64,000 bases of DNA from Rhizophlyctis rosea (taxonomy: Eukaryota > Chytridiomycota > Chytridiomycetes > Rhizophlyctidales > Rhizophlyctidaceae), in the NCBI GenBank assembly GCA_027596075.1, contig JADGJC010000055.1, positions 1 through 64,000 of the forward strand, read 5' to 3'. Made by a program: the position numbers and the translations under genes. The stretch's first letter is position 1. Each line of letters begins with the position of its first letter. Under the pieces are notes generated by a model. The model was not told the DNA's origin and searched no databases. It saw nothing but the letters and a program-made list of their open reading frames with translations. This document shows, piece by piece, positions 5,374 through 44,260 of the stretch.

Positions 5374-6835
5374 ATGGACCTACTGACGTATGTTGATTCA
5401 TGGAGGCAGATGAACTGTGCAGCCGGCGTTGCTAAAAGTCTTTCGACAGGGCAATGCACCCCAATAAAATAGTCGAAGACGAAAACCGCCTGGCGGTGGT
5501 CCGCCGCTGGGGAAAAGTATTAGGAAGCATGCATCCTTCCGCCAATACGTCGCTCCAAGTGTACGGATCTACCGCTACTGGGCTGTATCTGCCCACTTCC
5601 GATGTGGACGTCAAGATCACTGACCGCTACACGGCCGACATCTTCGCTCCAGGTCGATCGGACATGAACATGAAGACCGACGTTTTGGAAAGACTTCAAA
5701 TATACCTGGCGGACATTCGATCACAACGTGGATATGAGGATCCTACACTCACCAACTTCATTCAAACGGCTCGAACTCCGATAATCAAACTAATGGACCA
5801 AGAATCGGGACTGCCAATCGATTTGTCATACGGATTGCATGACCGTAGCATCATCACCAAAATCCAACATCTGCTCACAACCATTCCGTACATGGAGTCT
5901 CTCACGCTGCTTCTCAAATTGATTGTTTCTCGGGTGGAGGATCTTGACGTACCGTATCATGGTGGATTCGGTGGCCTGACATTGGTTGTTATGGTCGTAT
6001 GTTTTATGGTGGAAACGTACAGCTGTGACGATGCGAGGGTTCCGTCATTGGGCGTCTGCTTCCTTGGGCTGCTCAGATATTATCATTCATTTGAATTTTC
6101 TGAGTATCTGATCACGATTGATGGGAAGTTGCGGAAGACGAAGGAGCAACGGTACAGCAAAGCTTGGAAAACTGTCGCCATTGTAAATCCGACCAATCCG
6201 TCGGAGTTGATTTCAGCATCTACAACTCGAAGCCACGATCTGCAGCACGTGTTGAGTGGGATTGTAGATGGGATCATGCGCGATGGGAGGCAGGAAAGTC
6301 GGCGTTACTTGAAGGTTTTTTGGAGTTACCCGATTCGATGAGGGAAGCGGTGGAGAAGGTTGAGTTGTTTACGGAGTTTGGGAATGCGCCTGGCAGGATT
6401 GAAACAAATGCACCCTCCAAACACGTCGCTCCTCCTTCTTCAACTCCACCTTCAGCGAAGCGCAAAGATCTGGTCGATCAAGACAATGACGGCATGGAGC
6501 TCAACGACAAGCGCCGAAAGAAGGACCACCAATCCAAAGAAGCTGACATACCAATCACGCCGCCCGCCGCCGTCTCTCCCACGCTCGCAGCACCTGACTC
6601 GCATCGCAAGCTGCCAATCGAAAACGACGAAGACATCGAACAAATACCCACGCACCCTTCCGCCGCGGCCATCTCTGCATCCATTATCTCAAAGGACGAT
6701 GTCCAACACATTTCGGGACGTGGGGTGGACGAGTTTAGGGGCAAGGACTTTGATGGATCATTTGGTGGTGATTTGTTGAAGGCGGCGGCGGCGTCGGGCG
6801 AGGATGGACGGTTGAGCGGGGAGGGGCGTGATTAG
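5374..6835 (+). CDS. Trf4/PAPD-type nucleotidyltransferase, likely frameshifted
   Basis: A non-canonical poly(A) polymerase-like protein of the Trf4/Cid1 superfamily, which adds short 3' tails to RNAs marked for decay. A short exon 5374-5387 joins through a 62-bp GTATGT..CAG intron to an exon starting at 5450; the frame then reads LLTAMHPNK. The nucleotidyltransferase signature is present: Gly44-Ser45 and Asp56-x-Asp58 in VYGSTATGLYLPTSDVDV, and a third acidic residue Asp129 in LPIDLSYG. The PAP-associated region follows (GGFGGLTLVVMVVCFMV). That frame stops at 6341, while a +/-1 frame (GFLELPDSMREAVEKVELF...) carries a charged Ser/Pro-rich tail to 6835, so a single-base shift near 6285-6300 or an unseen small intron is needed. 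The last 60 residues of the upstream U2AF-like frame run into this gene with only one TAA (5368-5370) between. Confidence 0.7.
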
Positions 6836-7671: not shown

Positions 7672-10600
7672 TTATGTACATTGCGTCCTTCCAACCTCCC
7701 CCTCCCATGCGTCCACTCCACCTCCCAATCCCTCCATCAACTTCATCCCCAAATAGGTTTCCTCAAACGGCTTCCAGTCAGTCACCTCATCCCCGCCGTA
7801 CTGATATCTAGTCTCCAGCACAGGAATAACGAAGTCATGGAACACATCCCACTGGATTGAGGTCAAGTACGATAGGTCATCGTTCTCTGGTTGTGCTAAC
7901 GAGGCGATGGTGGCGGCGCTGTTAGCTGGGGTTGCTTCTTCGTTGGTAGGCTTCGCACGTTTGGATGGGTTGTCTGCTGTCGTATGAGTAGTTTCAGAGC
8001 GCTGGGGCCCTCCACCTGATGAGCCAGCACCATCTTCACCAGTAACAGATCCGACATCTGCATCCCTGCCCTCTTCATCAAACACTGACGCCTTCCTCTT
8101 CCCGGCACCCGTCCCCAGCTTGAATGAAACTGGTGTCGACACAGACGACTGCCGCAACCGACCGCCCCGCATAGAAGCAAGCACAGAAGCCTTTGCTAAC
8201 ACGGACAACTCCTCCACGACAACTCTCTTCCGCTTTGCTTCGTCGGCGATCGTATCGTGGGAAATGGAGCGTTTTCGTTGGATCTGGATCTTCTGGTCCG
8301 TACTCGGGTTCGGAGTGGTAGTTCCTTGGCCGATGCTGCCTCTTCGTCCGCCAATACTACTGCTTCCACTTTCCAGACTCATGGTGCTTGCCCTCCTTCC
8401 AGCTGAGCTGCTGCCACCGACATCACTTCCGCCAAGTGCAATGATATCATCCCCGATAGGAACCGCGCCCGCACCTCCACTCAACGGACTGATGATCACA
8501 ACCCCGTCCTCCATCCGGAACCTTTCCGCATCCGCCTCCTTCAAACAACTCTCCAAGTTGTATATCCCGGCACATGGAGGAGAATGGAACACCCTGCATG
8601 CATAGAAGGTATGAATGATGGAAAAGGAGAAGGTGTCGGATTTCAAATTCATCAGTTACTGCAACTAAATTTCAATGATAACAGGCAAAGTGGTCAATCT
8701 CCATACCTCTTGAAAACATCCCAAAACTGCGTTTGATGAATTCTGATTTCCCCTTTCGACTCAAATAACCTCTTCACCGCCTCTCTCTTCGCGTCATTCG
8801 CACGCTGGGTGGCTATTTTCGTCTTCTTACCCTTCATCGTTTTGCGCCATTGCTCCCATGCCTGAATACATCATCACAAATTGTAAATGGGAGGGAGGAG
8901 GTTAAGAGGTTTGCTGATGAGTCTAATTGCTTCTTATTCATTCCACGAAGACACTGGCGACAGTTTTACCTTGGCCAACTTGTCATCGTTCCACCTCACG
9001 AAAGCGGTTTTGGCGAATTTTTCCGCGGTCAAGGTGGATTCGAGTTGGTCGGTGAGGAAGGGGTGGGAGGTTGATTGCTGAGGGTGGTGAAGGAGTGAGT
9101 TAGATGTGTGCAGATGATTTATCAGTGTTCCCACGTTACCTCAAATCGATCTTTGAACGTCATGATTTCGACATAGATGTATCCGCTGAATCCGGCGGAG
9201 AGTCCTTGGAGGAGAAGGGTTTGTGGCATGGCGTCGTTGGAGCTTGCTGGTGTTGGTGTGTGCCTCATTTCTGAGGAACTCGCTGCTGGAATTTCAACGC
9301 TCATACTTTCGAGCACGGTTGATGCTATGGATGTCGACCTGTCATCGCGCATGAATTCGCTCACTGCAGCATCATCTTCCTCCCTCTCATGATGAGACCT
9401 GCTCATGTTTGAGGATGCTCGCGGAGTTGCTCTCGCACTTTCCCGAGTATCAACATCAGGAGCAGCACTCATCACAACATCTTCATCGTCCCTCGTCCGG
9501 ATGACAACCATCCCATCCTCAACATCCATCCCCCTAACACCAACATCTCGGAACAGCTCACCCAACTCCTCCATTCTCCCACAAGGGCGGATCCGATACA
9601 TCCTACAGGACAGACGAGATTGATTCCGGGAAGATGGAAATGAAGGCGACGCCATCAAGGCTCACGCAAAACGATAACATACCCCTTGAACGCCTTCCAA
9701 AATTCTTCGAAACCAACTCGAAGTTTCCGCCTCCCACTACTACCAAAGAAATATTCAAGACCTTTACGGAGGTGCTTTTCGGACCCCGTTGCCATTTCGA
9801 ATTTCCATTCCGCGAAGACCTTTAATCCAGAATTCGCGTTGAGAAAAATCAGAAAAGAAAAAGGCAATTGGGTCCTTTTTCACCTTCTCCTCCTTAGCTT
9901 CTCTCCACCTATAAAATTGCGTGCCGCTAAATGCGTCCACAGTCAAGTGGTCTGCCACTCGTCGGCGTGGGAAGCGATAACTCGTCGTATTCTGTGTCAT
10001 CACCAATAGGAAAGAGGGATCAGACTACGTTCTGGCCTTCCATCAGAAACCGCCGCACCACTAATCCAATATAGAATACAAGAACCATTTTTCGCTTCCC
10101 GAACCTTACTTACTTCAAACCGCCTCTCAAACTCCTCTTTCTCGAAATACAAGTATCCGCCAAAGCATTTGCGGAGGACGGCCATGATCTTTTCGTCCGT
10201 TAACGCTCCTCGTGATGGTGATGCGGTGGGAGTTCCGGTTTGTGATGTCGGCCATAATGCTTTCTGCACCGGAACGGGAGTTGCCGTTTTCTCTCTCGCG
10301 TTTGTTGCAGCTGAAAAATTCCTGAATGCCGTCGCGGGTGCGCCTTGAGATGTGTATGCCGGCGAGGAACTAGCGGTTTCGCGGCGGGCGGGAGGGGTTG
10401 AGTGCCGTTCTGGTGACATATCAGTGGGTTTGGGTTTGGTTGTAACATCTGGTGGTGGTATCGCAGTAGCTGTTGATGATGGCACCGCACTTGCTGTTGG
10501 ACGTACGGGCAAGGACTGTGGGCACGGAGCGAGAACATAATTTTGTGAGTGAGAAAGGAGGGAAAATGCACCATTCCCACTGTTTCAAACTTGCTCTCTC

Positions 10601-13600
10601 AGATCAATCTCAAAGTTATGTGGGCTGTTCAAACTTACAGGATGGACTGGCGTATCCTTTTCCTTCGTCGAAATGGGAAAATCAGTTTGTTTCGAAGTCG
10701 CCGCACCCACCACCGCCTTCTCCTTCTGATGCCATCGACTTTCCACACCCTTCTCCTTCACCTTAACATCAACAGCCTTGAGTGCACCTTTGTCTTCCTT
10801 CCCCTCACCCATCCCCTTCTCACTCCCACCTCCCTCATTCTTCTTCTCCTCACCGTCCAACCCCTTCACCAAAATCCTCTTAACAGACTTCTCCTCCGCA
10901 ACATACTCAAACCCCTCACTACGATTCAACACCCCCGTCATCATCACCCCATCCACCCCCCTCCACTCCCCATACACACACTCATACATCTTCTCCAATG
11001 TCCTCCGATCAATCTTCGTTCCCTTTCCCACCAGCCCGACTAAACGCTTTTCCAACTCGCTGAATGGCAAACGTGTGCCAGAGGTGGTTGATTCCGTAGA
11101 AGGGTCGAGGAGGCGGACCCAGTACCGCGCGGGATGGGCAGCGTCGGATTGGAAAGTGAGGACAGAAAAGGTTTTGTGCAGGTCGTTGCGGATTAGGTTT
11201 AGGATTGAGGGACGGCCGTGGGTGGCTTCGTTTTTGAGGAGTTTTTGGTCTTCGGTTAGGGAGGTGTTGTGGGTTTGGCGGTAGAGGTAAATTAGGTCGG
11301 TTAGTTCGATGTATTTTGCGGGGGTTTTCGTGACTAGACAGATCGATGTTTTCGAATAGTTTGTAAGGGCAATTTGAGAATGTGGTCGAACGGGGAATGA
11401 AGATAATGGATGGGATTTGAGTTGGTCAGTAAAGTTGAAATTTCAGTGTCAGATGATGGGAATGCAACCTTTTTTTCTGCACTTACATAGACTGGCGATC
11501 TTTTGTGTAATTTGTCTCTTCACTTCCTCATCCGTCAACTCCTCACCGTCACGACTACTCCCCCTCTTCTCTCCACCTCTCACACTCAATGCCTTCCGCA
11601 ATTCACCACCACCACCCCCCACACTACCCCTCCTCTTCTCCAACCTCTCCTCCACCCGCTCCTTATTTCTACCTTTCTCTACTACCTCCACCTTCCGTAG
11701 CTCCGCATTTTTTGGTCGCTCCTTAACCGTCACCCCCTCCGTCGCAAGATCCTCCACAACCAGCAACTCCTCAGTAAACTTCCGAATCAAATTCTTCCGA
11801 TCCGTCAAATCAATACCAAGGCGCCTCTCGAGTTCCTCTCTGATACGACGCCCGGAGACATTATTGAAGTCGCTGATGCCCTCTAAGAGTTTCCATACTT
11901 CCTCTTTGAGTTCGTCGTCGGTGAGGGTAGAGCTGGTCTTCGTTGCGGGGAGATCAGACTTCGTTTGGGGTAGTTTCGTTGGATTAGCCTTTCCGGATGA
12001 TTCTCCAGCTGTGCTTGCACGTCGTTCTTTCACTTCCACAATGATAGGTGGTGCAGATGGTGCTGCATCTGTTGTGGAAGATGTCGGAACAGCGGTTCCG
12101 GATGACTCTTCAGCTGTGCTTGGACGTCGTTCTTTCACTCCCACAGCTATAGTTGGCGCAGCTGGTGCTGCATCTGTTGTGGAAGGCGCGGGCAGGTTTT
12201 GCAATTTTCGTTCCTTCAATGTAACGCTACTTCGACGGGATGTCGGCGGCGGTGGTGTAGTGGGTTTTGACCGTCTTCTGGCTACCGGGGGCTGTTCTTC
12301 GATTGATGGCTGCGCCTTGGCGTTCGCTTTTTCCCTTTCCCTCGATTGAACCTTATTGGTGGAATCTGACTTTGCTGAGGCTGGTGGAGGCTCTTTTTCA
12401 GGAGCCGTGAGCTTTTCATTGGATTGATTGCTGTCGACATGCCTGGAAGATGAGGAACTTGCAGCCGTAGAGCCAGTGGACCTCTCTTTCTCTCGGACCT
12501 GCGCCCCCATCCCACCTTCCTTCTCACCCATCCTGTCACGATCAGACCGACTTTCCTTCCCAACCCCTCCAATCGCCCTCCCATTCCGCTCCTTCTCCCT
12601 CTCTTTGTCCCTTTCCCTTTGTGTTTCCCTCTCCTTCTCCTTCTCCCTCTCCCTCTCCCTCTCCCTCTCCCTGTCCCTCTCCCTCTCCCTCTCCTTCTCC
12701 TTCTCCCCCGGCAAAACAACCAAACACCTCAACCTAAACGCCCCCTTATCATACCTAAACAACCCCTCACACCCCTTACAAATATCAAGCACCCTCAAAC
12801 TGTTTCCAAACACCTCCCTCCACTCCCACCCATACACATCCTTCAACAACGCCTCCAACGTTAAATCATCAACCGCTATTCCGGGTCGTACAAGCGAATG
12901 CAACATCCTCCCCAGTTCCGCGTTCGTCATTTTACGGGGGTCGTGCTGTTTTTCCGAGGTGGGTGGGGTGTAGAGAAGGGGTTTGAGTTCCGGACGGGTG
13001 GAAGCAAGGCGGAGCCAGTGTCGGGGTTTTGCGGGGGCGCCGGAGGTGACTTCAATGAGAGTGAAGGTTGAGGAGAGGTGGTGGGTGAAGAAGTCGTAGA
13101 TTAGGGTTGAGCGGTAGCCGGCTGATTGTTTGTCGTCAAGGAAGGTGGTGTTGTAGCGGTTGGCGTAGGTGGTTTTTAGGGTGGGCATGTCTATGAAGAT
13201 TCCTGGTTCCCATACTTGTTTTTTGTGGGTGTTTGGGGCGAGGAGTTTGAGGGATTGGTCGGAGTTGTGTGGGTTGGATGGATTGATGGAAGATAAGGAT
13301 GGTTAGATTTTTCGCTTATGTGTATGAGATAAAGAACCTTTAAAAATGACAAAAACAAACTCTCCTACGTACATAATCCAATCATCCTTGTCCGAAGTCG
13401 TTCAAACATCTCCTCCTCCCTCGGTGTCAACATCCTCGATCGATGCCGTTCCCTAGGTGAAGTTCCCCGGCTTCGACTTTCGCTCACCCGGCTTGACGAC
13501 CTCGATGTTTCCCGACTGTGGTAGCGCTCCTCTCTATCCCAACTCGACGATCTAGAGGGGTTTTTGTAGTCCCCGGGCCGCGGCCGGTCTTCATATCTCA

Positions 13601-16235
13601 CGGGGGAATGATTGGAAGACCGCCTTCCCTCATCGCCAGTGCGACGGTGACTGGATGACCTTGATGAATCTCCGCTTGGCAATCGGCTTGGACTTGAGGA
13701 TTTAGGTGGGTAAGATGCATCCTTTGGAGCAGAAGCCGAGACATGTTGGATAGGACTGGATAACCTGTCTCCGGCCCTTTCCCTGCCGACATCCTGTGCA
13801 TTTTCAAGCCCATCCTTCGCACTGCCCACACCAGCCTTCTCACTCCCCTCTCGACCCTTCCCACCAGCTCCTTCACCCCTGTCACCCACATCATCTTCAT
13901 CCTCATCCATCATCAACGGGCTTCCAACCATCCTCCCACCACCTCCATCAACCGCCAAATCCCTCTCCTCAGTCTCACCGCCCCTGCTCGAGGACTTCAA
14001 TTTGTTGCCAAACTCAACAGTCTCCCGAAAATGAACATCGTCCCCTTCGACCCATACACCACGTCCAGGATTGCTATCCCCAGTTGCCTCGCGAAGCAAA
14101 TCGCCCACGGCGGATACGGATGGTCCGGGAGTGGTGTTGTATGCGCTGCAAAGGGGTTAGGGGTGAAGCAGAAAGTCAATATATGCCATAGAAAAGGCGA
14201 CAGAACATGCAACAAAAACACACAAAAATCAGCAATAGCAGAGGGGACAAAAAAAAGGGTAGAAAAAACGAACCTCCGAAACGCTGTCCAAAACCTCGAC
14301 GTGCGCATCTTCATCTTGGAAACACGGAACAACCTCCTCGACGCTTCTAGGACGTCCTTGGACGCCTGGTGGATTCCGTCGTTTCGGAGGCGGTGCATGA
14401 GGGTTTTCATGTCCTGCACAAAACAGAACAAATCATCTGTTGGGGGCATGTAACGTATCAAAAAAGGAAGGGAAACCCCGCTACCTCATCCCAGAAAAAC
14501 CATTTTAACCGGACGAATTCACTCCCGTTAACTATGAGCGGGTCGCAGAAGTAGGTGTTGTGGTATTTGCGGGGGAGTGTGTGGGTGGTTATGCGCTGGT
14601 GGTAAGTGTAGGGGTAAATGGAATGTATGATTTTTCTGACCAACCTAAATGTTAATCAAACCAACCCTTTTCTCCTCCTGTTCCTTTCAAAGAGAGCTTC
14701 CCCGTCTCATGATATTTTCTAAGGAAATATTGCTCCAACAAAATTCCCATCCTACTCAACTGACCTTGAACTCCCTCTCAACCTCCCCAACCTCCACAAA
14801 CACAAACCCTGCAAACACCTTCCGCAACGCTTCTTCAACCCGTTCAGGATGATCATCCCTTTTCTCCCTCCATTCTTGACGGTCTTCTCCTCTTGTCATG
14901 CGCTCTGTACGTCCTTCATCATGGCCACTCTCGCTGCCAGAACGAGTCCGTGCCACGCTCACTCGTAGTTTCTTACCACTCCGCCCTTCACTTTCCGACC
15001 CACTGCCCCCGTCCTCTGAATTCCCTTGGAATCGTCGTTTACGCAGGATGTGGAGACGCAAATCAGTCGGAGCATACGAAGATACATCTTTCCCCCCATC
15101 ACTCCCATCACTCGTGCCACTGAATCTTCTTCTCCGTTCTATCCGTCGCCTCATGTCTTCTTGCTGTGTACCTTGGTCTTCCACGTCAGATAGTACGGGG
15201 GGACGAGACAGCACGTATTTCGCATCGTCGTCTTGGTCTTCTCCTATTGTTGCGTCCGACAATGCTGGGGAAATGTCCATGTCTGAGTCGGAGCTTATGT
15301 GGATGGGGCTGTTGCAGGAATAGGGGTTGCCTTCGTTTGATGTATCCGAGGAGAGGATGATAGCCTCTTCCTTCTCTTGGGCTTGGCTGGCTACGGCTTC
15401 TTTGCGGGTTGCACTTGATCTCTGTTCTTCAGAAAGTGATGGCCCAGTGTTCACCGGATGATGATTTTGGATGCTCGGTCCCACTTGAGTAACAGGTAGG
15501 GGGACGGGGAGGGCAGGATGACGGGAAAGAGGTGGGCCAGGTGGTAAAGCGGTTTGGTGGTGAACCGGTAGGAAAGGTGGTGGTGGCACTAGAAGGACCG
15601 GTGGTGGAGGGACTGGCAGGAAAGGTGCTGGGGGAACCGGTAGGGAAGGTGATGGGGCAAGGCGAGTGACCTCTTCCAAAAATCCCTTCCTGGTCTCCTT
15701 CTGGATGATTAGAGGAGAACCTCGTGCAACACAAATGGAACGAACGAAGTGCTCGAAGTCTGCTCTCGAAGAGGGTTTGGAAGGACAGGCATCGGAAAGA
15801 AGTCTGTGGAGAACTGGAAGGCGAATCCTTACTCCGGGCTAGCAGACGGCAATAACCAAAAAACTGGTCATTGATTTGGACTCAAACCCTCCCTTGTACT
15901 TGCAAGTCGCTAACCTTGATCAATTCAACCACATGCTCAGGTTTGAGTGCTGTAAGGCTGTCTGGGATTTTCTGCCTCAACAACTTCAATTGAGCTTTTT
16001 CGCAGACCCATTTGACATCCTTCTCAAAGTCCTTTGAACGAAAGCCATGTTCTCGGACCAAGATGTCTTCGATATTATTTTCTCTTTTGAGAAATTCCGG
16101 GTCGTTGTGAAACATAGATAGCGGAAACCATAGCCCTGGTTGAGAACGGGAGAATGCCAGAACTGCAAGGATGGCACGCTGAATTGTTGGAGACTGGAGC
16201 GGGGGCCGGGGTTGGGGTGGGAGTACGGAAGACAT
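7672..16235 (-). CDS. Large modular protein with repeated multi-exon units, unknown family
   Basis: Fourteen exons: 16235-15915, 15838-14765, 14595-14485, 14413-14274, 14145-13373, 13214-11487, 11333-10639, 10515-10114, 9991-9884, 9819-9683, 9602-9140, 9077-8970, 8861-8707, 8593-7672. All junctions are GT..AG, all phases agree, and the sum (7137 nt) gives 2378 aa. The start is the ATG before SSVLPPQP. Exons 3-4, 9-10 and 12-13, with their flanks, are three divergent copies of one module; the exon 5/6 and 6/7 regions are two copies of another. Between modules lie long low-complexity linkers rich in Pro/Ser/Thr, Arg/Ser or Glu/Arg. A segment at about 11.93-11.76 kb (DDELKEEVWKLLEG, then RIREELERRLGIDLTDRKN) resembles a DEK C-terminal domain, hinting at a nuclear or chromatin role. 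The compact modules resemble winged-helix folds in pattern only. No whole-protein family is recognised. Confidence 0.8.
8485..9236 (-). repeat. Module B copy 3 of the modular gene
   Basis: An AMPQTLLLQGLSAGFSGYIY segment ends KDRFE at a phase-0 intron. A 36-residue exon with LTAEKFAKTAFVRW ends at a phase-0 intron. The next exon contains AVKRLFESKG and TQFWDVFKR and ends at a phase-2 intron. VFHSPPCAGIYNLESCLKEA and FRMEDGVVII follow. Confidence 0.75.
9492..10206 (-). repeat. Module B copy 2 of the modular gene
   Basis: A LTDEKIMAVLRKCFGGYLYF segment ends ERRFE at a phase-0 intron. A 36-residue exon with LTVDAFSGTQFYRW ends at a phase-0 intron. The next exon contains KGLEYFFGS and FEEFWKAFKG and ends at a phase-2 intron. 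MYRIRPCGRMEELGELFRD and MDVEDGMVVI follow. Confidence 0.75.
10851..11540 (-). repeat. Module A copy 2 of the modular gene
   Basis: It starts with LTDEEVKRQITQKIASL and is cut by a phase-1 intron at 11486-11334, the same place and phase as in copy 1. Then come LIYLYRQTHNTSLTEDQK, RYWVRLLD, and a second half with RTLEKMYECVYGEWRGVDG followed by SEGFEYVAEEK. Confidence 0.7.
12590..12712 (-). repeat. CT/GA-rich microsatellite coding Arg-Glu run
   Basis: CTCCCT/CTCCTT-type tandem hexamers on the + strand encode a long Lys/Arg/Glu alternating run inside exon 6 of the modular gene. Its coding composition resembles the RD/RE run of the U2AF-like gene at 4.5 kb, but it lies on the opposite strand. 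Confidence 0.85.
12708..13430 (-). repeat. Module A copy 1 of the modular gene
   Basis: It starts with LTPREEEMFERLRTRMIGL and is cut by a phase-1 intron at 13372-13215. Then come TTYANRYNTTFLDDKQ, HWLRL, and a second half with LTLEALLKDVYGWEWREVFG followed by CEGLFRYDKG. It aligns in order with copy 2. Confidence 0.7.
14048..14850 (-). repeat. Module B copy 1 of the modular gene
   Basis: Order of parts: an ALRKVFAGFVFVEV segment ending EREFK at a phase-0 intron; a 37-residue exon with LIVNGSEFVRLKW ending at a phase-0 intron; an exon ending FWTAFR at a phase-2 intron; then AYNTTPGPSVSAVGDLLREA and a VWVEGDDVHF segment. Confidence 0.75.
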
Positions 16236-16857
16236 TGTCGGAAAGTTTTGAGTTTTGCGGCAGTTGCTATTTTCAACTCCCGCTGTACGGGATGTTTCCA
16301 ATGATGCTGTGGATCGGGAGGCAATGTGTCAGTAGTTCCCGTAGGGTAGGCAATAAGGTTGTAAATTGGGGTGTTGGGAATGGGTATAAACATAGTTGTG
16401 GGAAGACCAGGAGGATCTGGCCCATCTGCATCTATCTGTTGTGAGCTTGTGATGAGTTTAAGAGGCACGGTACACACTCCAGTGTGGCTTGGATGGAATG
16501 CTTATTGAATCAGATTGCGTAATCCTCATCCCTCCAATGTCGCGCCCAACCTCCATGGCATCACCACGAAGCTGACCTTCCAGAAGAATGAACGATCAAC
16601 TACTGTCGGCATGATGTTGGGACCATGGGGAAGCCAGTATGGAGTCGCATTCCTTTAATGTCTTGTTAGCATCCCATGTATCCATGACATGAGCAACATT
16701 GTGGTTTTCCATGGCACTATTCATAATTTGACGAGACATAGGTGAGCGACCCCCCATATATACTGACATTTCCTGGAGTTCCCTCAGCTTTTTGCGATAA
16801 CTTCACGCTCCCACTTCTTTTCACTCAATTGTTAACCGTCTAGTACATCTGAGCGTT
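16236..16857. promoter_or_regulatory. Divergent intergenic region (shared promoter area)
   Basis: This 622-bp stretch separates the divergent starts of the modular gene (minus strand) and the unknown protein at 16858 (plus strand), so both promoters must lie here or overlap it. A TATATA-containing string (CCATATATACT) lies about 100 bp before the plus-strand ATG. No other element is recognised. Confidence 0.4.
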
Positions 16858-17781
16858 ATGTCAACGAAGCTCCACAAATGTCGCACCGTAGCCTTTGTTC
16901 TAACGCCGGCACCCTGCGGTTCACGACGTCTCGGTTCAAAGTCTCAAATTGCGAAATCACTGCACACCGGCTCCTTGCAAATCTTCTCGGAGTCGAGACT
17001 TTCAGCTGACCGTGATGCAGCAAAGAAGCACGGCGTCAGCAACGAGCTCCTACCGCTTCTATCAGAAGCTGCCGGCAATCGCAACCCTCAATCAGATGAC
17101 TGGGTTGACAAGGCCGACCTTGCACATGGCACATCCACATCGTGTTCCATACTCAAGAGCTCGATGTCTCTATCTCTCAACATTGACCCCTTGAACTACA
17201 TCACTCTGCAAACCAAATTTCCAGATTCATCCCAAAACATCTCCATATCCACCCTCGTCCATCTCGGCTACCTATCAACCTCAACATCCCTGTACGCCAT
17301 TTACCAAAACTCCCGCTATCCGATCCGCATCGTACCTTCCGACCCCTCCGAGCGCCCAAACCGTACAACAACATCCTACTCCCTCGAATACCGTGGCATA
17401 ACAGCCTCCTCCCCGTCCGACCTCGCCTTCAAAGTCAAGCCGCACCTCGCAAGCCGGGCCTGGGACATCATCATGGTAGAAAACTGGACATGGACACGTC
17501 GTGGAGGCAAGAGTGTCACTGAAGATACTCCCCTCCGCCGTGTAGCACAGGACATCACGCAACTCGCCTCTGATTTTTTGTGGCGGGCTGTAAAGAAAGC
17601 GGTAAAGCCGGCAACGCTACAGACTATGCGGTGCATTTCGCGGAGTGGGTGGGAGTTTGGGATTGTTTGTGAGGATATGGAGGTTGTGAAGAGGGTGGTG
17701 GAGGGGAACGAGTTGTTGAAGTTGCCGCAGTGTGAGTTGAAGGTGTGGTGTACCAGGCGCAAGTCTGCTACTACCTTTTGA
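16858..17781 (+). CDS. Unknown protein, single exon, possible mitochondrial presequence
   Basis: A 307-aa open frame with consistent coding composition and an in-frame ATG close to a divergent promoter. The first 45 residues are rich in Arg, Lys and Ser and nearly free of acidic residues, as in mitochondrial targeting sequences; that localisation is inference. The middle (about 115-200) is Ser/Thr-rich with beta-strand-like alternation. The C-terminal third has Trp-rich and amphipathic segments (RAWDIIMVENWTWTRRG, ASDFLWRAVKKAVK). I recognise no family and see no catalytic motif. No intron is needed. Confidence 0.6.
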   Translation: MSTKLHKCRTVAFVLTPAPCGSRRLGSKSQIAKSLHTGSLQIFSESRLSADRDAAKKHGVSNELLPLLSEAAGNRNPQSDDWVDKADLAHGTSTSCSILKSSMSLSLNIDPLNYITLQTKFPDSSQNISISTLVHLGYLSTSTSLYAIYQNSRYPIRIVPSDPSERPNRTTTSYSLEYRGITASSPSDLAFKVKPHLASRAWDIIMVENWTWTRRGGKSVTEDTPLRRVAQDITQLASDFLWRAVKKAVKPATLQTMRCISRSGWEFGIVCEDMEVVKRVVEGNELLKLPQCELKVWCTRRKSATTF

Positions 17782-18239
17782 CATGGCGAGCCGTGTCGTC
17801 GCTGCGGGTTATGCTCTTAGGAACATCTTCTGACAGCAGTATATATACACATATAGTTTGTAAGTAATGAATAGTTTGTAGAATAACATCATTTATAAGT
17901 CAAAACAGCGGGTATGCAGTCCACCTGATCTGAGTGTTTCAGGACATCCATATACCAAACTGCATCAAAGTCACATGCATAAAGTACTTTCAATAGCAAT
18001 GCCAAAACAAGATAAAAATATATTACAAATCTACTTCCGAACACTCTTCTCACCCGAATACAGAATCAAAAAACTAAAACACCAAAGCAGAGGTAACACG
18101 GATCAAGCGGAAAACAACTATCAATGGACCCCTCCAAAAGAACACAAAAACAACAAAATACTATGACTTTAACTTCTAACTCGAAACCCCCCCTTCCATC
18201 CAACAACTCTCTCCACACCCTACATAACACACAAACCTC
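17782..18239. other. Intergenic, convergent 3' ends
   Basis: This 458-bp stretch lies between the 3' ends of the unknown 307-aa gene and the RhoGAP gene. It is A-rich, with AATAAC and TATATAC strings near 17840-17885 that could act in 3' end formation. No gene is seen. Confidence 0.5.
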
Positions 18240-21200
18240 CTACACCGACTTCCGCCTCTTGAAAAACTTCGGCAATGCATCCGATATCTTATGCTTCTCC
18301 TTATGCTGCTCCTTATGCTGCGGACTCCCATTCCCCCCATTGTGGGTATTGGTGGCCGGGATATCGCCAGCGTAACTGGCCAACGAAATTGGAGTGGTAA
18401 TGGGGGCGGAGATGTTCAGATGGTGGGTATTGGTTGTTGTTGTTGTTGTTGTGGAGGAGGAAGGGATTGAGTGGAGTTTTTCGAGAAGGGTTTCGGGGAG
18501 CTGGGTTGGTTGGGAGATGGAGTAAAGGGGATTTGAATGGACCGGATGAATGGTAGGAAGAAGAAGTCAGTACACCGACACCCATCTTATCTCCCCCCTC
18601 TTCCCTCCGAAACGCCCCCACCCTTCAGGAGAAACCCACCTGGAAAACCTCATCCCACCTCTCAATCAAATCAGTCACCACCTCCACCGTACAATTATAC
18701 ACCACCAGCGCGTCCTTCGTAACTTTACCCGTCACGCTCTTTGGCCTCAAAATATTCGGGCCGATGACAATCGCGAGGGATGAGGACGTCATTTTGTTCG
18801 CTTCGGAGTGCTGCGCGACGTCGTTGAGGAAGGAGAGGAGGTACCGGAGTGTTGATTGGTGTGCACGGGGGAGGAGAGCGATGGTTAGACGGAGGGCGCG
18901 GAGGCGGAGGTCTGGGTCGGTTATTTCTGGGGGTTTTTGTGAATGAGTGGGTGAGAACAATAAACCTCCAAATGCCAGCGGCAGGTGAGGATACCGCAAA
19001 AGGCACTCACCACCACACTTCAAAAACACCTTAAACAACCTCCCCGTCAAAAGCGGCTCCGGCATCTCCCTAAAAAAGGCTTTCAACAAATTTGCGACCT
19101 CGTGCGGACTCTTGTCATCAAATTCGATATCTTCCCCACTATCGACAAGGCTTTTCATCTGTGCGACGCGGGAGCGGAGACCGGCGACGCGGAAGAGGCC
19201 GGGGGAGGACATGCCGGCTGTGGTGAGGGGTGGGGAGTTAGTGAGGGAGGGGTGGAGAGGGGAAGGGGGTGGGGGAAAGGGGGAGATATACGCACTTTTC
19301 TGAATGGCTTCACAGCATTTTATGACGAAAGGTGGAGCGGGGAGTTTGCCTTCGATGTTGGAGGTTGTGCTGTGCGTGTCGGAGGTGAGGGTCATGAGGC
19401 CTTCAATGGAGCGGCCGAAGATGTGGCCTTCGGCTAGTTCTGTGTGTGGTGGGAAGGGGAAGAGGTACATGGTATTATGTTCAATAAATATTCGCGTTCA
19501 AATGATGAGCTCAAGCTCGTTCGAAATGCTGACGCATGTTGACCGAATATCATCTTACCTTGTCTACTACCCAACTCCCTACCCCCATTCCACCCCTTCG
19601 CACCACCACCCTTCCCTCCAAACCGGCTCAAAATCTTCTTTAGAGTACTATCCTTACTCCTCCTGACACGGGGTAAAATCTCGCTGGCCTGGTTTTAAAT
19701 GCAGAAAAAAGAGTCATTTGGTCAAACTTGCGAAAGATTTCCTTCCCACTCTCCTACAAACCCCGCCCCCCCCCCCCCCCCCCCCACACCGGGGGGAAAC
19801 AAAAAAAAAAACACCAAAAAAAAAAACACACCACCCACAAAAAGAAANNNNNNNNNNAAAAGGGTTCCATAACAATAGAAAACCCACCTTCATAAACCTC
19901 CCCTCCTCCATGATACTAATCAACTCCGCCCCCGCCAAATCATGTAACCTCGCCTCATCATCATAACTCGCACTATATATCACCGTCGAGCTCGCCGCGA
20001 CACTCGGGCGCTCCACCCGAAACTTCGCGAGACTCTGGATACTCGGACTGGTACTCAAGCTAAATTGCGGGGGCGCGACAGTCGAGGAGGGGAGTACTAC
20101 ATCAGACGAAAGGGGTTTTTTAACGGATTGTTGACGGGGGAGGGAGGAGGTTGGGGATGTTAGGGATGAGGTGGAAGGGAGAGTGTCGAGGTCTTGCAGG
20201 TTGGGGGGTTTGGATTTGCGACGCGAGGGGAGGGAGGGGACGATGGAGGAGAGGGATGCTTCGGATTTGCTGATGGATTTTTGGGTGTCTGTTAGGCGGG
20301 ATTTGGATTTTGAGAAGAGTTTTACGTGGGAGGTTGTTGTTGTTGTTGTTGTTGGTTTCTTTGTCGGTGCGTCGCTTTCTTTTTCGCCGAATCTACTGGT
20401 TGTAGATGGGGCAGGTTCACGCCATGGTGCTACGCGGGTATCGAAACGGGATGTTGGGGTGATGTTGGTTCCGGTGTTGGTTCCGTTCATGAAGCCTGTT
20501 ACGACGTTTCGGAGGCTGTCCATGCTTCCGCTTCTGAAGAGGCCTTTCTTTGCGCCTTGGGGTGCGTCGTGGAGCTGTGTTCCGAGGGGTCCGGGTTTAG
20601 TTCCCTTTGCTGTCGTCGGCGGTGAAGGTTGTTGTCCCGACGCAGCAGCACGTTTACGAGACTCTTCGTGTGTAGCTAACTGTATAAGCTCCTCCACTGA
20701 TGGAACACTGAAGAAAGTAGATTTGCGAAGGTCAAGTAAAGGTGGAGAAGAAGACTCGATATCTTCCTCTTCCTGCTGCTCTTCCTGCTTCGTCCTTACT
20801 CCCTCCTTTACACCTTGGTCCTGACTCCGTGGCGCTTGCGGGACGACGCCAGCCTGGATGGTCTCCGTAAGTACGACAGAGGCGCCTCGATCCGGCCCCT
20901 GACTGCTGGTAACCACGGCCTCGGTCTCGATCCATCCGGTGCCTTCTCGCAGCACGGCGGCGGCGGCGGCACCTTCGGTTGTTGAGGCAGGTGGGAGGAA
21001 GGAGGTTTCGGCTGCTGTGTTGCGTGTTACGCTGTCGGTTATCATGACGCTGTCTTGGGCTATTGGAGAGACTTTGCGGTCGGTGATGGTTGGTGTGGTG
21101 GGTTCCGCGGGTGTTAGGTTGACGTGTTTTTCTTGCTGTTTCTCCCGAGACGTTTCGACCTGCTCATTCGATCTGGTTTCCTCCGCACCTCGCAACTTCC

Positions 21201-26800: not shown

Positions 26801-29800
26801 GGTCCGCCACGTATCGAAGTACTCGCACGCTGTTTCGCTCCAGGAGCGTAGCTGTATTGTCGAATGGAGTCCAATCAACCGGAAGAACCAGAAAGGGTGA
26901 AGAATGTAGCAAGGCTGCAGATGAAGATGCCACTTTTGGATCATGACTCGCGCCAGCGACAGAAAGAGCCCCAGTGGGAATGGTCAACAATTCCGTGATG
27001 GCTTCCGAAATGCACCCGAGTGTCAAAAAGGTTTCGACGCGTAGAAGCACAATTGCTGCAGCTGATAAGGAGGTGAGGCTGTGGTTGCGGCATAGATATT
27101 CTAGCATGGAGAGCAGAATCAGAACGCCTGTAGGTCGCCGTTGGTCCAAAAGGTCGCGTGCTGTGACGATAAGCGAATGCGCCAGCGAAGATGGATTGAC
27201 CACATGTGGGTCTGTGAAAATCGATGCCGAAGGTAGAAGTTCCATCGGCATGTACATGAGCAACTTCGATGCATCCTTCGGGTGGGGTAGAGTGACCAGG
27301 ACCGGTAGGGCCAAAAGCCTCGATGCAAATAACAATAAATCTCGCCGTTTATCCAGATCACGATTTCCATACACGTATTCGGCAATACGAGATACGGCCA
27401 CCCCGGCCATGACGGCATTCCTGACCCCACCAGCCAATGTGACCACCTTCCCAGCATCCATATTGACATTTGTACCCTCCAGCCCCCCTATCATCTCCAT
27501 CCAAATACCAATCACCCTCTTCTTCTTGAAGACCGCATCAAGAGACCGTGACCAAGCAACCAGTGCGCCATCCAAATCCCCGTACTCATACATGAGATTG
27601 CCCTGCTCAAAAGCGCAAATACCTGCTATATCCGTGACTTCCCGGGCACAAGCGACATGGTACAAGTCATCATATGCTGTGGATGCCGCATAATAAGCCT
27701 CTACAACCGTCTGGTCAAGAGCCCAGTTCCTTGTCGTGAAGAGATAGTAATAGGTAAGGCGAAGACCTCGGGCCGTCACAAGCATGTCGGAAAGAGTTGG
27801 TGAGCGGGGAACATCAGCCACTTTGAACCCGGGAGTTGGTGGTTTTGAAGCTACGTTCGAAAAAGCCTCTCCGTCCTCCTCCAGACTCGTCATCGCCGCT
27901 GCCGCCTCTGCCTGTTGCTTGGCAATCTCGTTCCGAGCATGATCAAACACCGGTGCCAAGGATCCTCCATAGACCTTGTTAAACATTTTGTTGAACCGAG
28001 TCCCAACTTCCAATAGCCGATGCCATTTCCGTGCAATGTACATGGCCTCCAAAGTGAAGAGGAGGAAATGAGCACAGAATGCCATATCAATTTGCACGGT
28101 TTGGATCTCGTTATGGTTGTCCATCCATCCGGCAACGTGTTGATGAGACAGTAGTTGTTCTAGACTTCTGAAAGGCATTGTGGGTCCCGCGCTCCCACTA
28201 GACTGCGCCCGCCGTTCCGCATCCGGGGTTTTGGCAGCATAGACTTTTTCAATTAGGTCATTTTGCTCCTCCTCTTCCATGTCCGCCCTCCGCACCTTCA
28301 CACCTTCCAGAAGATCCAACAGACAGGTGGCGGAGATCCAATATGCACGCCACCAGTTCTGCCGCCGAAAGTCTGGACCGTTCATGGCCCGTCGGTTGAG
28401 CAATTGACGTGTCACGTGCCATATTGCGTGTAACCCGTTCATCGACTGTCGCCAGTGACCGATGCGGGCTGGAAGGACGACGGATTGGACGAGGTGCTGG
28501 AGCATTTCACTGGTGGTCTTGACAATTTCTGTTGTGTAAGACTGGGATCCGCCCGCTCCGCCCGTCTTCGGGTGGGAAGTTGTTGTTGGCAGTGGTATGG
28601 AGTTGTTCACGCTTCGTGCTTTGGAAACGGGGATTAACCGCAGATCATCCAACAATATCTTTCCGCTTTGCCACAACTCGAAGCACTCAAAATTGGAGGT
28701 AGGTATTGTGTCGGGTGCATTGTTTATCTCGCGTGGTACGATATCTTTTTCCAAATGGCTGAACAATGCCAACCCGTGTGTCAGCGCAATTAAGGCAGTC
28801 CACGAGGTCTCATACGCAATCACAGCGCGGAGCCGCCGCGCATACCGTTTTGAGTGCCTACAAACATTTGAGCGGTAAGTTTCAAAGAAAATGAACTGCA
28901 ATATGAAAACTCCGAGGTCGCATACCAAAGTGCAGTCATTACTTCGTCCAACGTTTTCAACGCTCGCTCCTTTCTCTCCCGCTCTGCAGCATTCAACCCC
29001 GCTAAGAAAGCCATCTTAGCCGCAGCTCTCTTGCGCTTCAACGCAGCAGCATCCTGTCTCGCATCTCTATCCTTCTCCCCTGCATCAGCTCTCGCTGCAC
29101 CGTCAGACGCATCCCCAGGAGGACTTCGACTCCGGGACCGGGCTTTTGACATTTTCCGCGCCGTTGCATCTCTATCAGAGTCACGCTCTGCAATCATAGT
29201 AGGACTACTTCTGGCAGCAGCTTCTCTAGTTGCGCTTCGACCCCGAATTGTGTCGGGCATGTTGCTGGATGCACTTTGTGGGCGTTCATGTGGTGGTGGG
29301 GAAGGTGACCGTGAATATCCACCTGCTGCTATTGAGGGGTCTGAACTGGCGCGGAAGTTCTTCAAATGAGCTTGAGTCAGAGGGCCTTTAGGTCTAGTCG
29401 GGAATTTGTTAGGTCCGTCGACAACTTGATCGCCACTTGATGCAGCAAATACCACTCACTTAGCCTTCCCCTTCCCTTTCCCATCCCCCTTCTTCCCTCT
29501 CTCCGCAAACATATTTCTCTTCCTCTTCCTTGGCCCGCCACCTTCCCTTCTCTTCCCTCCGCCCACACCCCCACCCCCACCCTCCTCCTCAATCTCATCC
29601 ATCCTCAAAAGCCCCTGATTCCTCCTCTCAAGCCACTCCTCCACATCCGTACACGTTCTCGCAGCACTCTCAGCTGCTCCCAAACCCCACAATGTCCATT
29701 CCACATTTCGTGCCACAAGCTCCACGTAGCGCGGATGTTTCTTGAACCGCGTCAGGTCTTGTAGCACGACATCAGAGCCGGCGGTAATGGCTACTGTGTA

Positions 29801-32800
29801 GAGTTCCTTGATTGTAGTGTTCGTGTCAAGGGATTTGCGGGGTGGAGCGATGTTGGTGGGGAGGATGGGTTTCTCATCTGGTGTTGGTGGAGGTGCAAAT
29901 TGGGATGACGTGGCTTGGAGGGGACTTCCAGCAGCTACACCGGTACCCCAGGCACTTGCAACTGTTGTTGCGACAACTACCTCCAGAAATTCACATATTT
30001 CTTCAACGACGCCACGATGAAGGCTTTGGTAGCCACGAATGGGATCGTCAGAAACAGCTAAGAGCGCATGATGCGAAAACTCTGCCGCCCACGTCCCCGC
30101 TCCCTTTCGAGCAACCTTTGCCGTACCACTCGTTCCTTTTTCCTTATCCTTTTTGCCCTTCCCCGCTCCGCCCCCACCCCCGCCACTTCCAAACCACCCT
30201 TGCTCCAAGTTTGCCGAATTCAAAATCCGCAAATCGGTTGTTGGTAAGGCGGTGTTGACAACTTTCAACGAATCCTCTGCAATACGCAACGCAGAATGAT
30301 ACGCAGTCGGGCGCCGGCGGATAGTCAATCGCCGTACAAGCTGATACGTCAGTGGTATAAATACACGAAGGATCACGTCCCTCCTTCCTTCTTCGCTTCG
30401 GAGTTTCATTACGGTTCTCACAAGAGCAGAATGACATGCGGTGAGGACAAAAACGATGTACGGTAAACTTGGACGGGCCCCACCCTTGATCAGGTGGGAG
30501 GAGGGTTGGAACCCGTCCACGCTCAACATTGGTGACAGGATCGACGCAGCAATCTTGACAGCAATAGAACATTCCACTTCACTGTTTCCACTACGTTTTG
30601 CAACATCCAAACCGACAAGTAGCTCCCGACAACACTTCAACCTCAACATCTGACCCTCTAAGACATTTACTCGGCCTCTGGCGTCAATCTTCACAAACGC
30701 GTCGCCATCAAACTCACGTTCTACGGAAGCAACAATGCTCTGCGCAAAGGCTCGCAATAGGCCGGGAGACGCTGCTTCAACAGTTTCCGTCCGCAACTTG
30801 TGCGAAAAGAAACTGTCATCCTCCCCGGTTATACCATCGTCAACAGAACGCAGGACTTCGGTTCCGGGAACGGAATGGACGAAGTAAGATTTGAGCCAGT
30901 TGTGGCAGCGCATAGCAACTTCTGCGCTTCCCGTTACATGGGCAACTTCACCAAGGTAGGCGATGCAAGGGGCGAAAGGGAGAGGGAAACATGTTGTGAC
31001 GGGAAGGGATGATTCGCCCACTCCTCCTCCTTCTCCCAAGGGTTTCCCATCCGCATCGAATGCAGCTGTGGCAATGATGTAATGCATGTTGGGAGTGAGA
31101 TCGGAAAGAGTGATTTCTACGCCTTGGGAAGGGTCGTGGTTGGGTGGGATTAGGACTGGGGTACCGGAGCCTAGGACTTCGACGTCTGAGATGGAGACTG
31201 TTGGGCCGTGTGTTGTTGTGGATAGGAGTGGGATCTGTTTACAATAGGCCTGGTGATGGTGAATTTTGGTGGCGGATATAGAAGCAGGCGGGTAGGCGAG
31301 GACTTTGATTGTTGTGGGAGTCCGGGAGAGGATTGTCGGGGGTGGAGCTTTTCCCGGTTTTCCACTTTTGACATCTGCATTCCTCGAACACCAGCTTTTT
31401 AGGAGCGCTTCCTCCTCCGCAAAGCCTCTCCAAATTTCTCCTTCAGCCCTTTTCACATACAACCTTCTTGCCTCCTCATCGATTCCAAGTCCTAAACTTG
31501 CGACAACACCCCACAGTACACCCCTCGCCAGGAAGTTCTCCCCGCACCACCGCTTTGCATCATCCTCATCCGCCACCGTCTTGACTTTTTTGGTCGGGGT
31601 GCGCTTTTTGGTCAGTCGGTACCGCTCTTCCTCCTTACGGGTATACTCTCGCGTAGCCAATGCGTGGCGCTGCTTAAGCCGGTTGCGGAACAGCAGGGCG
31701 AGGAGGTCAATATGTAAGGATGTTAAAGTTTGTAATTGTGTCGAAGTCATTGATTGCGGTTGCAAAGGCTGTATTGACGCTGCACCGTTGCTGTGTAAAG
31801 ACTCGTTCTCCACCTTCCTCACCGCATCCATCACCTCTCCATGTGCAAACGGATCACTCGTAATACACCAAACTCCATCCGCCGCCTTGCCCAAGCCGCC
31901 AATCGCAATCCCACAGCACCCAACAATACCCTCCGTAACTTCCACCGCCTTTTCAAATTCACCCATCCGTTCCAGCAGGGTAGCAAACTTCGCGCCCGTC
32001 GTCACTCCAATGATGGGCTCCTCGTGTGGGTAGATTGTATGAATGGTATGGATGGCCTCCAAGGCCAGGAGGATTGTAGAAGAGGAGAGAATGCTTGAAG
32101 GGTAAATCGGTGCGTTTGAATCTAGGTCATGGATGTACGGTGACACGAATTGAGAGAGGAGGGAGGCAGCGTCCAGAAATAAGTAAGGTGCACCAATGGA
32201 TAGCAAATCATATTCCGCACACGCCGAGACGGAATCGATGACAGATGCAACGGAAGTGGCTACTTGTGGAGAAATTTCCGGGAGAAGGAGGTTGGCTGCA
32301 CTGCCAAGTGGCGCCAATACATCAGTGCCGAAGCCGACTTTGCGTTCGGTATGGAGAATATCGCGGAATTGGCGGACGTTGAGACGGAGTTGGAGTTCCG
32401 AGAGGTAGGCTTGGAGTGTTGTATCGTCGAGGGCGTCTTGGTGGGTGCCGCCGACGAGGAAGGGTTCGAGCAGGCTTGCGACGGTGTTATAGCGGTCGTA
32501 TTGTTGGTGGAGGAATTGGTGGCGGGAGAAGGCGATGACATCTTCTAGACCCAAGACTGAGAGTCGACGATCTTGTTGGAGGCGGATCAGGTCTATTGGT
32601 CGGAGGGGTGTAATTGGTTTTGGACCTTTTGCGTATACTTCTGTGATGCGTTGCTCGGCGAAGGCCGTTTCGGGGTCGGAACGAATAATATCATATCCAA
32701 TATCCAGAAGAATATTGGCCGTGTGAACTACTCGAGGCTGCGTCTTCACATCTAATCCCGTGGCCAAAAGTCTCACATCTGCCGATGTCAAAGCATGCAA

Positions 32801-34833
32801 TCCCTCGACAACAGCTCGGAACCTGTCCCTGTCACTCGTAAAACCTTGCAAGCAATGCAAAATATCGAAGAGAAACTGCTTTTTCATCTTCCCTTCCTCG
32901 CCCTCGTCCGCGCGGACCTTTACTTTTGTAGTCTTCTTTTTGACCTTCACCACTTCTTCCCCACCTTCACCTTCCGCGATGCCGTCCAACCCTTCACTTT
33001 CCGCTTCGCTCTCCACCATGGATGTACGTAAACTGGAGAGACCAGCCAACTTGTATCCGATACTCATTGTGGACGCTTGGCGAGACAAACTCCTCAATCC
33101 AGCTCTTGCGGCTCCCATTCTCCGCGGTTGGGGGAACCCTCTGCCACCGGCTCCACCTCTCCCGCCACCATTCCCGCCCGCAACACTGCTCCGTCCGATG
33201 GACATTAAGGACGGGATTTTCGTCAAGTTCTGCACACTCGTCCGGCGGGACATTGTTTCGTCTTCTTCAAACAAAGAGCTGTCCGGTCGGATGCCAGAGT
33301 ATAATAACGTTCCTCCTCCGCCTCCTGCTCCTGCTCCTGGTTTACGGAGATGCGCAACAACAGAAGCCCGTCGAGATGCAAACCTCGATTGTCCATCCTC
33401 ACTCCCACCACCATAAATCGTGCTCGTCTCCCTTACCAAAACCGATCCTCTCGGTCCTCCGGCCCCACGCGCAAGCTCCTTCAACGCCGCTCCAGCTCTC
33501 TGCGCGACCTCTTCAACACTCACAATCTTCTTCCCAGAAACACACGCCCTGACCTTACATGCGAAGAGTGCCAATTTACACCGCAACACACTGACGTCAA
33601 TGATTTGCTGGGTCGTGTCTTCCAAAGGTTGGTTGTTGAGGGCGAGGCGTTCTAAAGTGGCGACTTCATCAATGGATTGGAGGATGTGTGTGAGGAATTG
33701 TTCGGATTCGGTGTATGCTTGGAGGTGGAGGTAGGTGTTTGTGGCGAGGATGGCGGTGTCGGTCAGGGTTGGGACGGTTTGGGCGGAGATCAGGGGGATG
33801 TGGGTTGTGTAGGTTAGAGTCAAAAAGAGGGTGGGTTCGAGAACCTGGTAAGGAAATATTTCATCAGCATGATTTGAGCAGTTTATGACAATGTAACGAT
33901 TTTGGAGATTAGAAGTGGGAGAAAGAAGCTCACCAAGTTCCACCACCCACCAACGCACAACGCATCCAAAATCGTTCTGACGTGGCCAGCACCATCCTCA
34001 ACCAAACTCGCAAAATCATCATTCTCGTTAGCACATTTCTCCATTGTACCTATCAGTCTCTTCACAACTTGCACAATCCTTCCGACAATCCCAGTAGTTT
34101 TCAACTTAGGATCAACACGGGCCAGGCGAGCAAAGTCGCACATTGCGCAACCAAACTCGGATCGGAGAGATAGGGCTCGTGGGGTTTTACGTGGATTGTG
34201 CATGGTGTCACTTGACGATGCCTTACGACTGACGTCTTCCGCCGCAACAGCAACAGGCACGGCATTTTCACCCGGCTCGGCACCAATGAGTAGAGCAGTG
34301 AGATCTCCACCCTCCCCACCATCAAGAAAAGGTCTAAAACAAACCGTCTCAGCAACATCCTCAAAGCCCGACGCATCTCTAACAATACACTCTCCACACT
34401 CCACTCTTCTGACATCCACAAACCCCTTCTCGAGATGCAACCCATACTTCGTCCAACATTTCGCAAAACGAGATGTGAGCAGCCGTCGATGTGTAGCTGT
34501 TGCTGCTGTAGGACTTTTGCGTTTAAGTGTGCGGTCATTGGAAGGCGATGTGAAGGAGGAAGATAAGAGCGCGTCAGGATGCTTGGAAGAGAATGCTTGC
34601 ATGCCTTTTAGGCAGAATGCGATTTCGGATTCGAACATTTGGGTCAGAGAGGTGGTTGTTAGGCGGGTTGGTTGAGCTACTGGTGAGGTGATGAGGTGTA
34701 GAGTTGATGCTATATGCCGGGGGAGAGGATGGGTTTTACCGGGCTTAGAGGGTGGGGATGGGGAAGGTGGTTGGGATTTAGACCGCGAATGCGGGCGTGG
34801 GGCACGTGTTGACGATGGTACTAAGGTCGCCAT
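23855..34833 (-). CDS. CFAP54: CFAP54, central-apparatus protein of motile flagella
   Basis: Five exons: 34833-33934, 33844-29460, 29393-28926, 28857-26185, 26123-23855. All phases close and the total is 3564 aa, somewhat longer than animal CFAP54 (about 3100). CFAP54/FAP54 belongs to the C1d projection of the central pair and is needed for normal flagellar beating. The diagnostic stretch is in exon 2: KAPPPTILSRTPTTIKV followed by a fibronectin-III-like segment ending ITLSDLTPNMHYIIATAAFD and DADGKPLGEGGGVGESSLPV, then PCIAYLGEVAHVTGSAEVA. Most of the rest is helical, repeat-like sequence. Exon 3 carries a basic Ser/Arg-rich insert (SRSRSPPGD). A polymorphic-looking Ala/Pro/Ser linker lies near 24.3-24.5 kb. 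The family is restricted to organisms with motile cilia, which supports a zoosporic fungus. Confidence 0.88.
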
Positions 34834-43703: not shown

Positions 43704-43957
43704 TTGGGTCCGTTTGTTGGAATGTGTAAATAGTTTTTTTTGGGGGAGTATGGGGGTTGTGCTTTTGTAATATAGTTTCATGTTTGCTTTTTTGCGCCAT
43801 CTACGTATCGTAATCGCACGTGTACGTAAGTTTGTTTACTTTTCTTACTTTCTTGCATATACTTTGAAAGGATAAATAGCATGTTGGCAAATCTGTACAT
43901 TTGCATCTTGTTTCGCCTTTGTTGTTTCTGAAGGGGTGCCTTCTTGGATCTCAGTTC

Positions 43958-44260
43958 AATCCTCTCAGGCCCATTGAATTCGCCTGGCAATCCTCTCAGG
44001 CCCATTGAATTCGCGTAGCAATCCTCTCAAGCCCATTGTTCGCGTGCAATCCTCTCAGGCCCATTGGTTTCGCGTAGCAATCCCCTCAGGCCCATTCATT
44101 TCGCGTGGGAATCCTCTCAGGCCCATCGATTTCGCGTCAAAATCATCCCATGCCATTCCAGAATCCTCTCAGGCCCACTGGCTAAAATAAGGGGTTCGGC
44201 GCAATCCTCTCAGGCGAACTGGCTAAAATACAAGAATCAACGCAATCCTCTCAGGCCCAA
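43958..44260. repeat. 31-bp minisatellite passing into 41-bp units
   Basis: The core AATCCTCTCAGGCCCATTG recurs with starts at 43958, 43989, 44020, 44048, 44079, 44110, 44141 (degenerate), 44162, 44203 and 44244. Spacing is 31, 31, 28, 31, 31, 31, 21, 41 and 41. Units 1-6 share a spacer of the type AATTCGCGTAGC; the last units carry GGCTAAAATA instead, so two spacer types share one core. It lies just beyond the 3' end of MED12 and abuts the MSH2 fragment. Confidence 0.92.

Follow-up and report, generated by a model that had tools for sequence, protein, structure and literature searches.

We analysed positions 1 to 64,000 of contig JADGJC010000055.1 from the chytrid Rhizophlyctis rosea (hereafter the window, meaning this whole stretch), in which a giant gene occupies positions 7672-16235 of the minus strand. 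A preliminary description of this DNA had proposed 14 exons encoding 2378 amino acids (aa), and an independent rebuild from the raw sequence gave the identical model, with no internal stop and with successive intron phases of 0, 0, 0, 2, 1, 1, 0, 0, 0, 2, 0, 0 and 2. The exons are listed below with their evidence; A1-A2 and B1-B3 denote copies of two kinds of protein module, and HDV00_009726 is a deposited Rhizophlyctis rosea hypothetical protein of 1527 aa.

7672..16235, minus strand: whole coding region, 14 exons, 2378 aa (rebuild and in-frame coding bias)
15915..16235, minus strand: exon 1 (rebuild)
14765..15838, minus strand: exon 2, N-terminal region, linker and head of B1 (rebuild)
14485..14595, minus strand: exon 3, 37-aa middle exon of B1 (rebuild)
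14274..14413, minus strand: exon 4, B1 (rebuild)
13373..14145, minus strand: exon 5, tail of B1, RS-rich linker and first helix of A1 (rebuild; not in HDV00_009726)
11487..13214, minus strand: exon 6, most of A1, charged linker, DEK_C and first helix of A2, AAG acceptor (rebuild; HDV00_009726 identical from residue 816)
10639..11333, minus strand: exon 7, most of A2 (rebuild; junction also in HDV00_009726)
10114..10515, minus strand: exon 8, linker and head of B2 (rebuild and HDV00_009726)
9884..9991, minus strand: exon 9, 36-aa middle exon of B2 (rebuild; skipped in HDV00_009726)
9683..9819, minus strand: exon 10, B2, AAG acceptor (rebuild and HDV00_009726)
9140..9602, minus strand: exon 11, tail of B2, linker and head of B3 (rebuild and HDV00_009726)
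8970..9077, minus strand: exon 12, 36-aa middle exon of B3 (rebuild and HDV00_009726)
8707..8861, minus strand: exon 13, B3 (rebuild and HDV00_009726)
7672..8593, minus strand: exon 14, tail of B3, linker and C-terminal region (rebuild and HDV00_009726)

With a codon-usage score derived from eight long open frames in the 64-kb window, which are not curated genes, we found that the modelled frame scored highest of the three forward frames in all 14 exons and highest of all six frames in 13, the exception being exon 4. The coding score was negative in all three frames for 12 of the 13 introns, with intron 9 as the exception.

Five modules are distributed along the protein as follows.

14025..14854, minus strand: module B1, aa 436-589, introns of phase 0, 0, 2 (alignment)
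9497..10215, minus strand: module B2, aa 1715-1865, introns of phase 0, 0, 2 (alignment)
8485..9241, minus strand: module B3, aa 1951-2108, introns of phase 0, 0, 2 (alignment and low-confidence structure model)
12706..13424, minus strand: module A1, aa 790-976, intron of phase 1 (alignment)
10852..11538, minus strand: module A2, aa 1366-1543, intron of phase 1 (alignment and predicted structure)

Their order is N-B1-A1-DEK_C-A2-B2-B3-C; a simple tandem array would not give the series B-A-DEK_C-A-B-B. In MAFFT alignments the introns of B1, B2 and B3 fall at columns 34/34/34, 71/76/76 and 130/130/130 with equal phases, so that the matching places proposed earlier are exact for the outer two introns; the middle intron is exact between B2 and B3, and that of B1 is shifted by five columns, next to a gap. 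The phase-1 introns of A1 and A2, also described previously, both lie at column 18. Smith-Waterman scores were far above those of shuffled sequences (z: B1-B2 15.4, B1-B3 14.2, B2-B3 26.6, A1-A2 22.6; 0 of 500 shuffles reached the score in each case) at identities of 38/135, 29/143, 44/149 and 51/171, respectively, which agrees with the low identity (20-30%) noted before. On a crude uniform null, the chance that two B copies share three introns of the same phase no more than 5 aa apart is ~8e-5. It is very unlikely that introns were gained independently at such matching positions, and we conclude that multi-exon units have been duplicated. The latest copying seems to have involved B2 and B3, which lie next to each other and are the most similar pair. 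We also considered A and B as diverged copies of each other; the six A-versus-B pairs gave z values of at most 1.2, with no sequence support for this idea. The preliminary description had further held that the duplication was old and the introns frozen: the duplication stands on the z scores and intron columns, whereas the old age lacks such support, as our limited searches returned no orthologue with which to date the copies and low identity may reflect fast evolution.

HDV00_009726 is a partial model of the giant gene, identical to residues 816-2378 save for 36 skipped residues (exon 9). It starts at the Met of MPTLK inside exon 6 (residue 816), lacks exons 1-5, and splices exon 8 straight to exon 10, while backing six of the 13 junctions (6/7, 7/8, 10/11, 11/12, 12/13 and 13/14). 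Exon 9 has the same position and phase in its module as exons 3 and 12 and a matching length (36-37 aa), so its absence from HDV00_009726 is probably an annotation error, and the public model looks incomplete. The weakest junction of our model is 5/6, where the intron 5 acceptor is AAG and the sole backing is homology to A2; the acceptor of intron 9 is also AAG and is used in HDV00_009726. This junction is where a reading as two genes would apply, with exons 1-5 forming a gene that stops shortly into intron 5 (IGLCT-stop) and another gene running from the exon 6 Met. The AAG acceptor, the readability of exon 5 into a stop and the start of HDV00_009726 at that Met all speak for such a split. 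It would, however, cut through A1, which matches A2 in its first helix (in exon 5), its phase-1 intron at the same column and its core, and the A2 counterpart of the exon 5/6 join is spliced in HDV00_009726. We consider two genes very unlikely.

By structure prediction, module A appears to be a winged-helix module nearest to the LOTUS/OST-HTH domain and not a new fold. The A2 model contains two winged-helix units, of which the second is less certain; the first is placed as follows.

11101..11538, minus strand: first A2 unit, aa 1366-1460, LOTUS-like winged helix (predicted structure)

The five best structural matches of this unit (VIA rows) are all LOTUS domains, and Egalitarian Egl domains occupy rows 10 and 11. 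In the predicted model, the first 100 residues of A2 have the features of the LOTUS fold, namely a three-helix helix-turn-helix core, a C-terminal strand pair and an insert. We read the short helix at residues 46-50 as the probable OST-HTH insert, which distinguishes this domain from other winged helices (PMC2848206). As for the C-terminal helix of eLOTUS domains, residues 96-110 of the A2 model are non-helical and a helix at 111-122 opens the second unit, with low predicted confidence (pLDDT, predicted local distance difference test) in this part.

Sequence profiles did not recover the LOTUS likeness, whether by PF12872 scans, a search of the organism's own genome (44.1 Mb, 634 contigs) or hhalign shuffles. 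PF12872 gave no match to the regions of the giant protein at E 1 or E 10 in Pfam scans, whose HMMER filters discard most weak matches, and the LOTUS Pfam family gave no match in the own-genome search. We ran hhalign against LOTUS on seven regions with 200 column shuffles each: shuffles scored as well in 34 of 200 cases for the first A unit, 5 for the second A unit, 53 for the second half of B, 48 for DEK_C and 37 for the C-terminus. Two regions outscored all of their 200 shuffles, the N-terminal one with a score of 18.5 (E 0.008) and the first half of B with 16.35 (E 0.013); we did not count either as support, given that both alignments are short and the register of the former is doubtful. Pfam matches below the cut-off were DUF5945 (E 0.02) and PuR_N (E 0.21) on the first A2 unit and DUF2805 (E 0.14) on B3, and those of NCBIfam were SLATT_6 (E 0.026) on the N-terminal region and SF-CC1 (E 0.28) on HDV00_009726, a low-complexity match by position. 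Sequence searches of the PDB yielded nothing significant (best E 0.82 with A1, 0.89 with A1 and A2, and 0.24 with B1-3).

Module B is less clearly modelled. A low-confidence model of B3 has helices and strands in the order H-E-H-H-E-E in its second half, and the module B model has weak structural matches, many of them to cullin and PCI proteins; winged helices are probably present here too. A viral structure library gave no match at E 0.001. These weak cullin and PCI matches, together with the binding of Vasa by eLOTUS domains (PMC5458760), speak for a pure protein-interaction scaffold, in which the winged helices dock proteins (as in the cullin WHB, PCI and eLOTUS-Vasa cases) and make no contact with nucleic acid. 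We regard such a docking role for the giant protein as distinctly unlikely.

The single family found by sequence above a cut-off in Pfam and NCBIfam is DEK_C, as the preliminary description had anticipated in recognising a DEK-C-like segment and no other family. Neither an assignment of A and B to unrelated known domains nor splice junctions other than those modelled, either of which was to count against the modules in that description, emerged, the junctions being judged without RNA data.

11761..11925, minus strand: DEK_C domain, aa 1237-1291 (Pfam PF08766; genome search match 11761-11922)
13434..13694, minus strand: RS-rich linker before A1 (composition)
12583..12705, minus strand: RE/RD/KE mixed-charge run at the start of linker 3 (composition)

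PF08766 matches with E 7.9e-12 and 45.4 bits against a curated cut-off of 24.8. In the own genome 17 of 18 DEK_C matches exceed the cut-off, and the giant gene holds one of the 17; six DEK_C matches cluster on one contig of that genome, at 15388-19544 of the contig. The low-complexity linkers reported between modules were recovered and amount to 1241 of 2378 residues with hand-set boundaries, linker 2 being RS-rich (16 RS/SR dipeptides) and linker 3 carrying 58 RE/RD/KE dipeptides. With DEK_C as the sole domain certain by sequence, the protein might be a chromatin protein, with DNA and not RNA as the target of both its winged helices and DEK_C, by analogy with DEK or the MOZ/MORF winged helices. 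Many winged helices bind DNA. Those of MOZ/MORF bind it cooperatively (PMC9908889). However, the five nearest folds of module A, as modelled, are LOTUS domains, and the RS/RE-rich linkers are reminiscent of RNA-processing proteins; a DNA-directed role of this kind is possible but rather unlikely.

The proposal of an undescribed architecture held in limited searches of proteins, the own genome and viral contigs. Protein database queries with exon 6, A1 (785-985) and HDV00_009726 895-1250 (B3, and B2 without exon 9) returned only the deposited protein itself, apart from two matches covering 2-3% of the query; the queries left out A2, B1 and the N- and C-terminal regions, and one search scored just the 8000 candidates richest in shared words. 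A distant orthologue could have escaped the protein search, which depends on 5-residue words in common and restricts length. In the own genome the B3 query gave seven matches (four inside the window) and the A1 query four (three inside), the outside A1 match being open with E 0.82. The three outside B3 matches (E 0.0018 with four stops, E 0.016 with two stops, and E 3.5, open) aligned to B3 with z values of 17.7, 12.2 and 10.5 against their own shuffles, having been chosen as the best of 44 Mb, whereas against B1 and B2 they gave z of at most 1.3 in six pairs, unlike genuine copies. As none matches B1 or B2, we discarded all three as chance; a decayed B copy is not strictly excluded for the best of them (E 0.0018). 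Thus no further module copy in the own genome was convincing with the B3 and A1 queries. Two scans of viral contigs gave 42 and 58 pattern matches, none of them confirmed, and among the best-matching papers per query none described the giant gene, and the locus tag HDV00_009726 occurred in no paper of the collection searched. The gene is apparently unique, limited searches being no proof of absence; its architecture appears new while its predicted fold is known.

As one module kind is predicted to be LOTUS-like, the protein probably binds nucleic acid through many sites, and as several small putative nucleic-acid-binding domains sit on flexible charged linkers, a multivalent scaffold is suggested. 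The modules, their duplication with shared introns, DEK_C and the linker composition are observed, and the winged-helix fold of A and the LOTUS likeness of its first unit are model predictions. We infer winged helices in B, nuclear location, nucleic-acid binding and a scaffold role, and see a roughly even chance that a single gene here encodes a ~265-kDa, probably nuclear, multivalent nucleic-acid-binding scaffold with LOTUS-like winged helices and DEK_C on charged, disordered-looking linkers. DEK binds DNA and self-associates. In such a scaffold, the five modules and DEK_C would have arisen partly by duplication of multi-exon units; each A module would supply two winged-helix units, the first LOTUS/OST-HTH-like, and B would probably supply winged helices as well. 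Each LOTUS-like unit might make weak contact with partner proteins or with RNA, structured or G-rich, as for LOTUS domains, which are reported to bind G-quadruplex RNA (PMC8331183; PMC13186709). DNA binding or self-association would come from DEK_C, and RNA or chromatin could be drawn into a granule by numerous weak contacts along flexible linkers of mixed charge. A bolder version, which we think unlikely, is a chytrid-lineage giant multi-LOTUS scaffold with at most 10 winged-helix units, its five modules around DEK_C copied as three-intron and one-intron genomic units, that would organise RNA granules, or chromatin and RNA, in a fungus whose genome gave no LOTUS Pfam match.

LOTUS domains are best known from animal germ granules. 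If our interpretation is true, LOTUS-like domains exist in a zoosporic fungus in a form that sequence families miss, and in unusually large number per protein. LOTUS domains in fungi would not be new in themselves, as their presence in fungi has been reported (PMC5458760) and Aspergillus nidulans is among the species listed (PMC2848206). The gene is also a compact record of exon-unit duplication, in which intron place and phase are kept while the protein is down to 20-30% identity.

Frames around the giant gene, in which we saw no link to it, are the following.

5436-6338, plus strand: Cid1/MTPAP-like poly(A) polymerase frame, downstream, convergent (Pfam)
16801-17778, plus strand: frame without Pfam match, upstream, divergent (Pfam scan)
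18628-19497, minus strand: RhoGAP frame, upstream (Pfam)

Elsewhere in the window, a 1513-codon open frame (29459-33997, minus strand) carries a sub-cut-off hint of CFAP54 (E 0.005). Between 39000 and 44000 the two strands are strongly asymmetric: the plus strand is G+T-rich, the GC skew is +0.36 to +0.82 in seven of ten 500-base bins (starts 39000 to 43500) and the AT skew is below zero in every one of the ten. A tandem array at 43957-44137 comes after this region.

Proteins with the DEK C-terminal domain share with the giant protein one DEK_C over the Pfam cut-off; DEK is not known to contain the A or B modules. The LOTUS/OST-HTH proteins TDRD5, TDRD7, MARF1, Oskar and Tejas resemble it in having several domains per protein and, judged by the model of the first A unit, in the winged-helix topology with an extra short helix. 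They differ from it in that the giant protein has two predicted winged-helix units per module, DEK_C and module B, and no significant sequence or Pfam match to LOTUS; Tudor, NYN and RRM were likewise absent from Pfam scans of its module, N-terminal, C-terminal and DEK_C regions, the linkers lying outside the scan. Little sequence conservation with other LOTUS domains is reported for Caenorhabditis elegans MIP-1 and MIP-2 (PMC8331183). These have two LOTUS domains each and are germ granule proteins, unlike the chytrid protein. We know of no DEK_C in MIP-1 or MIP-2. Egalitarian is an animal protein with further domains and no detected sequence relation to the giant protein, but its Egl domains ED1-ED3, in its RNA-binding region, are tandem winged helices said to be LOTUS-like (PMC13186709), an arrangement that resembles the one predicted here.
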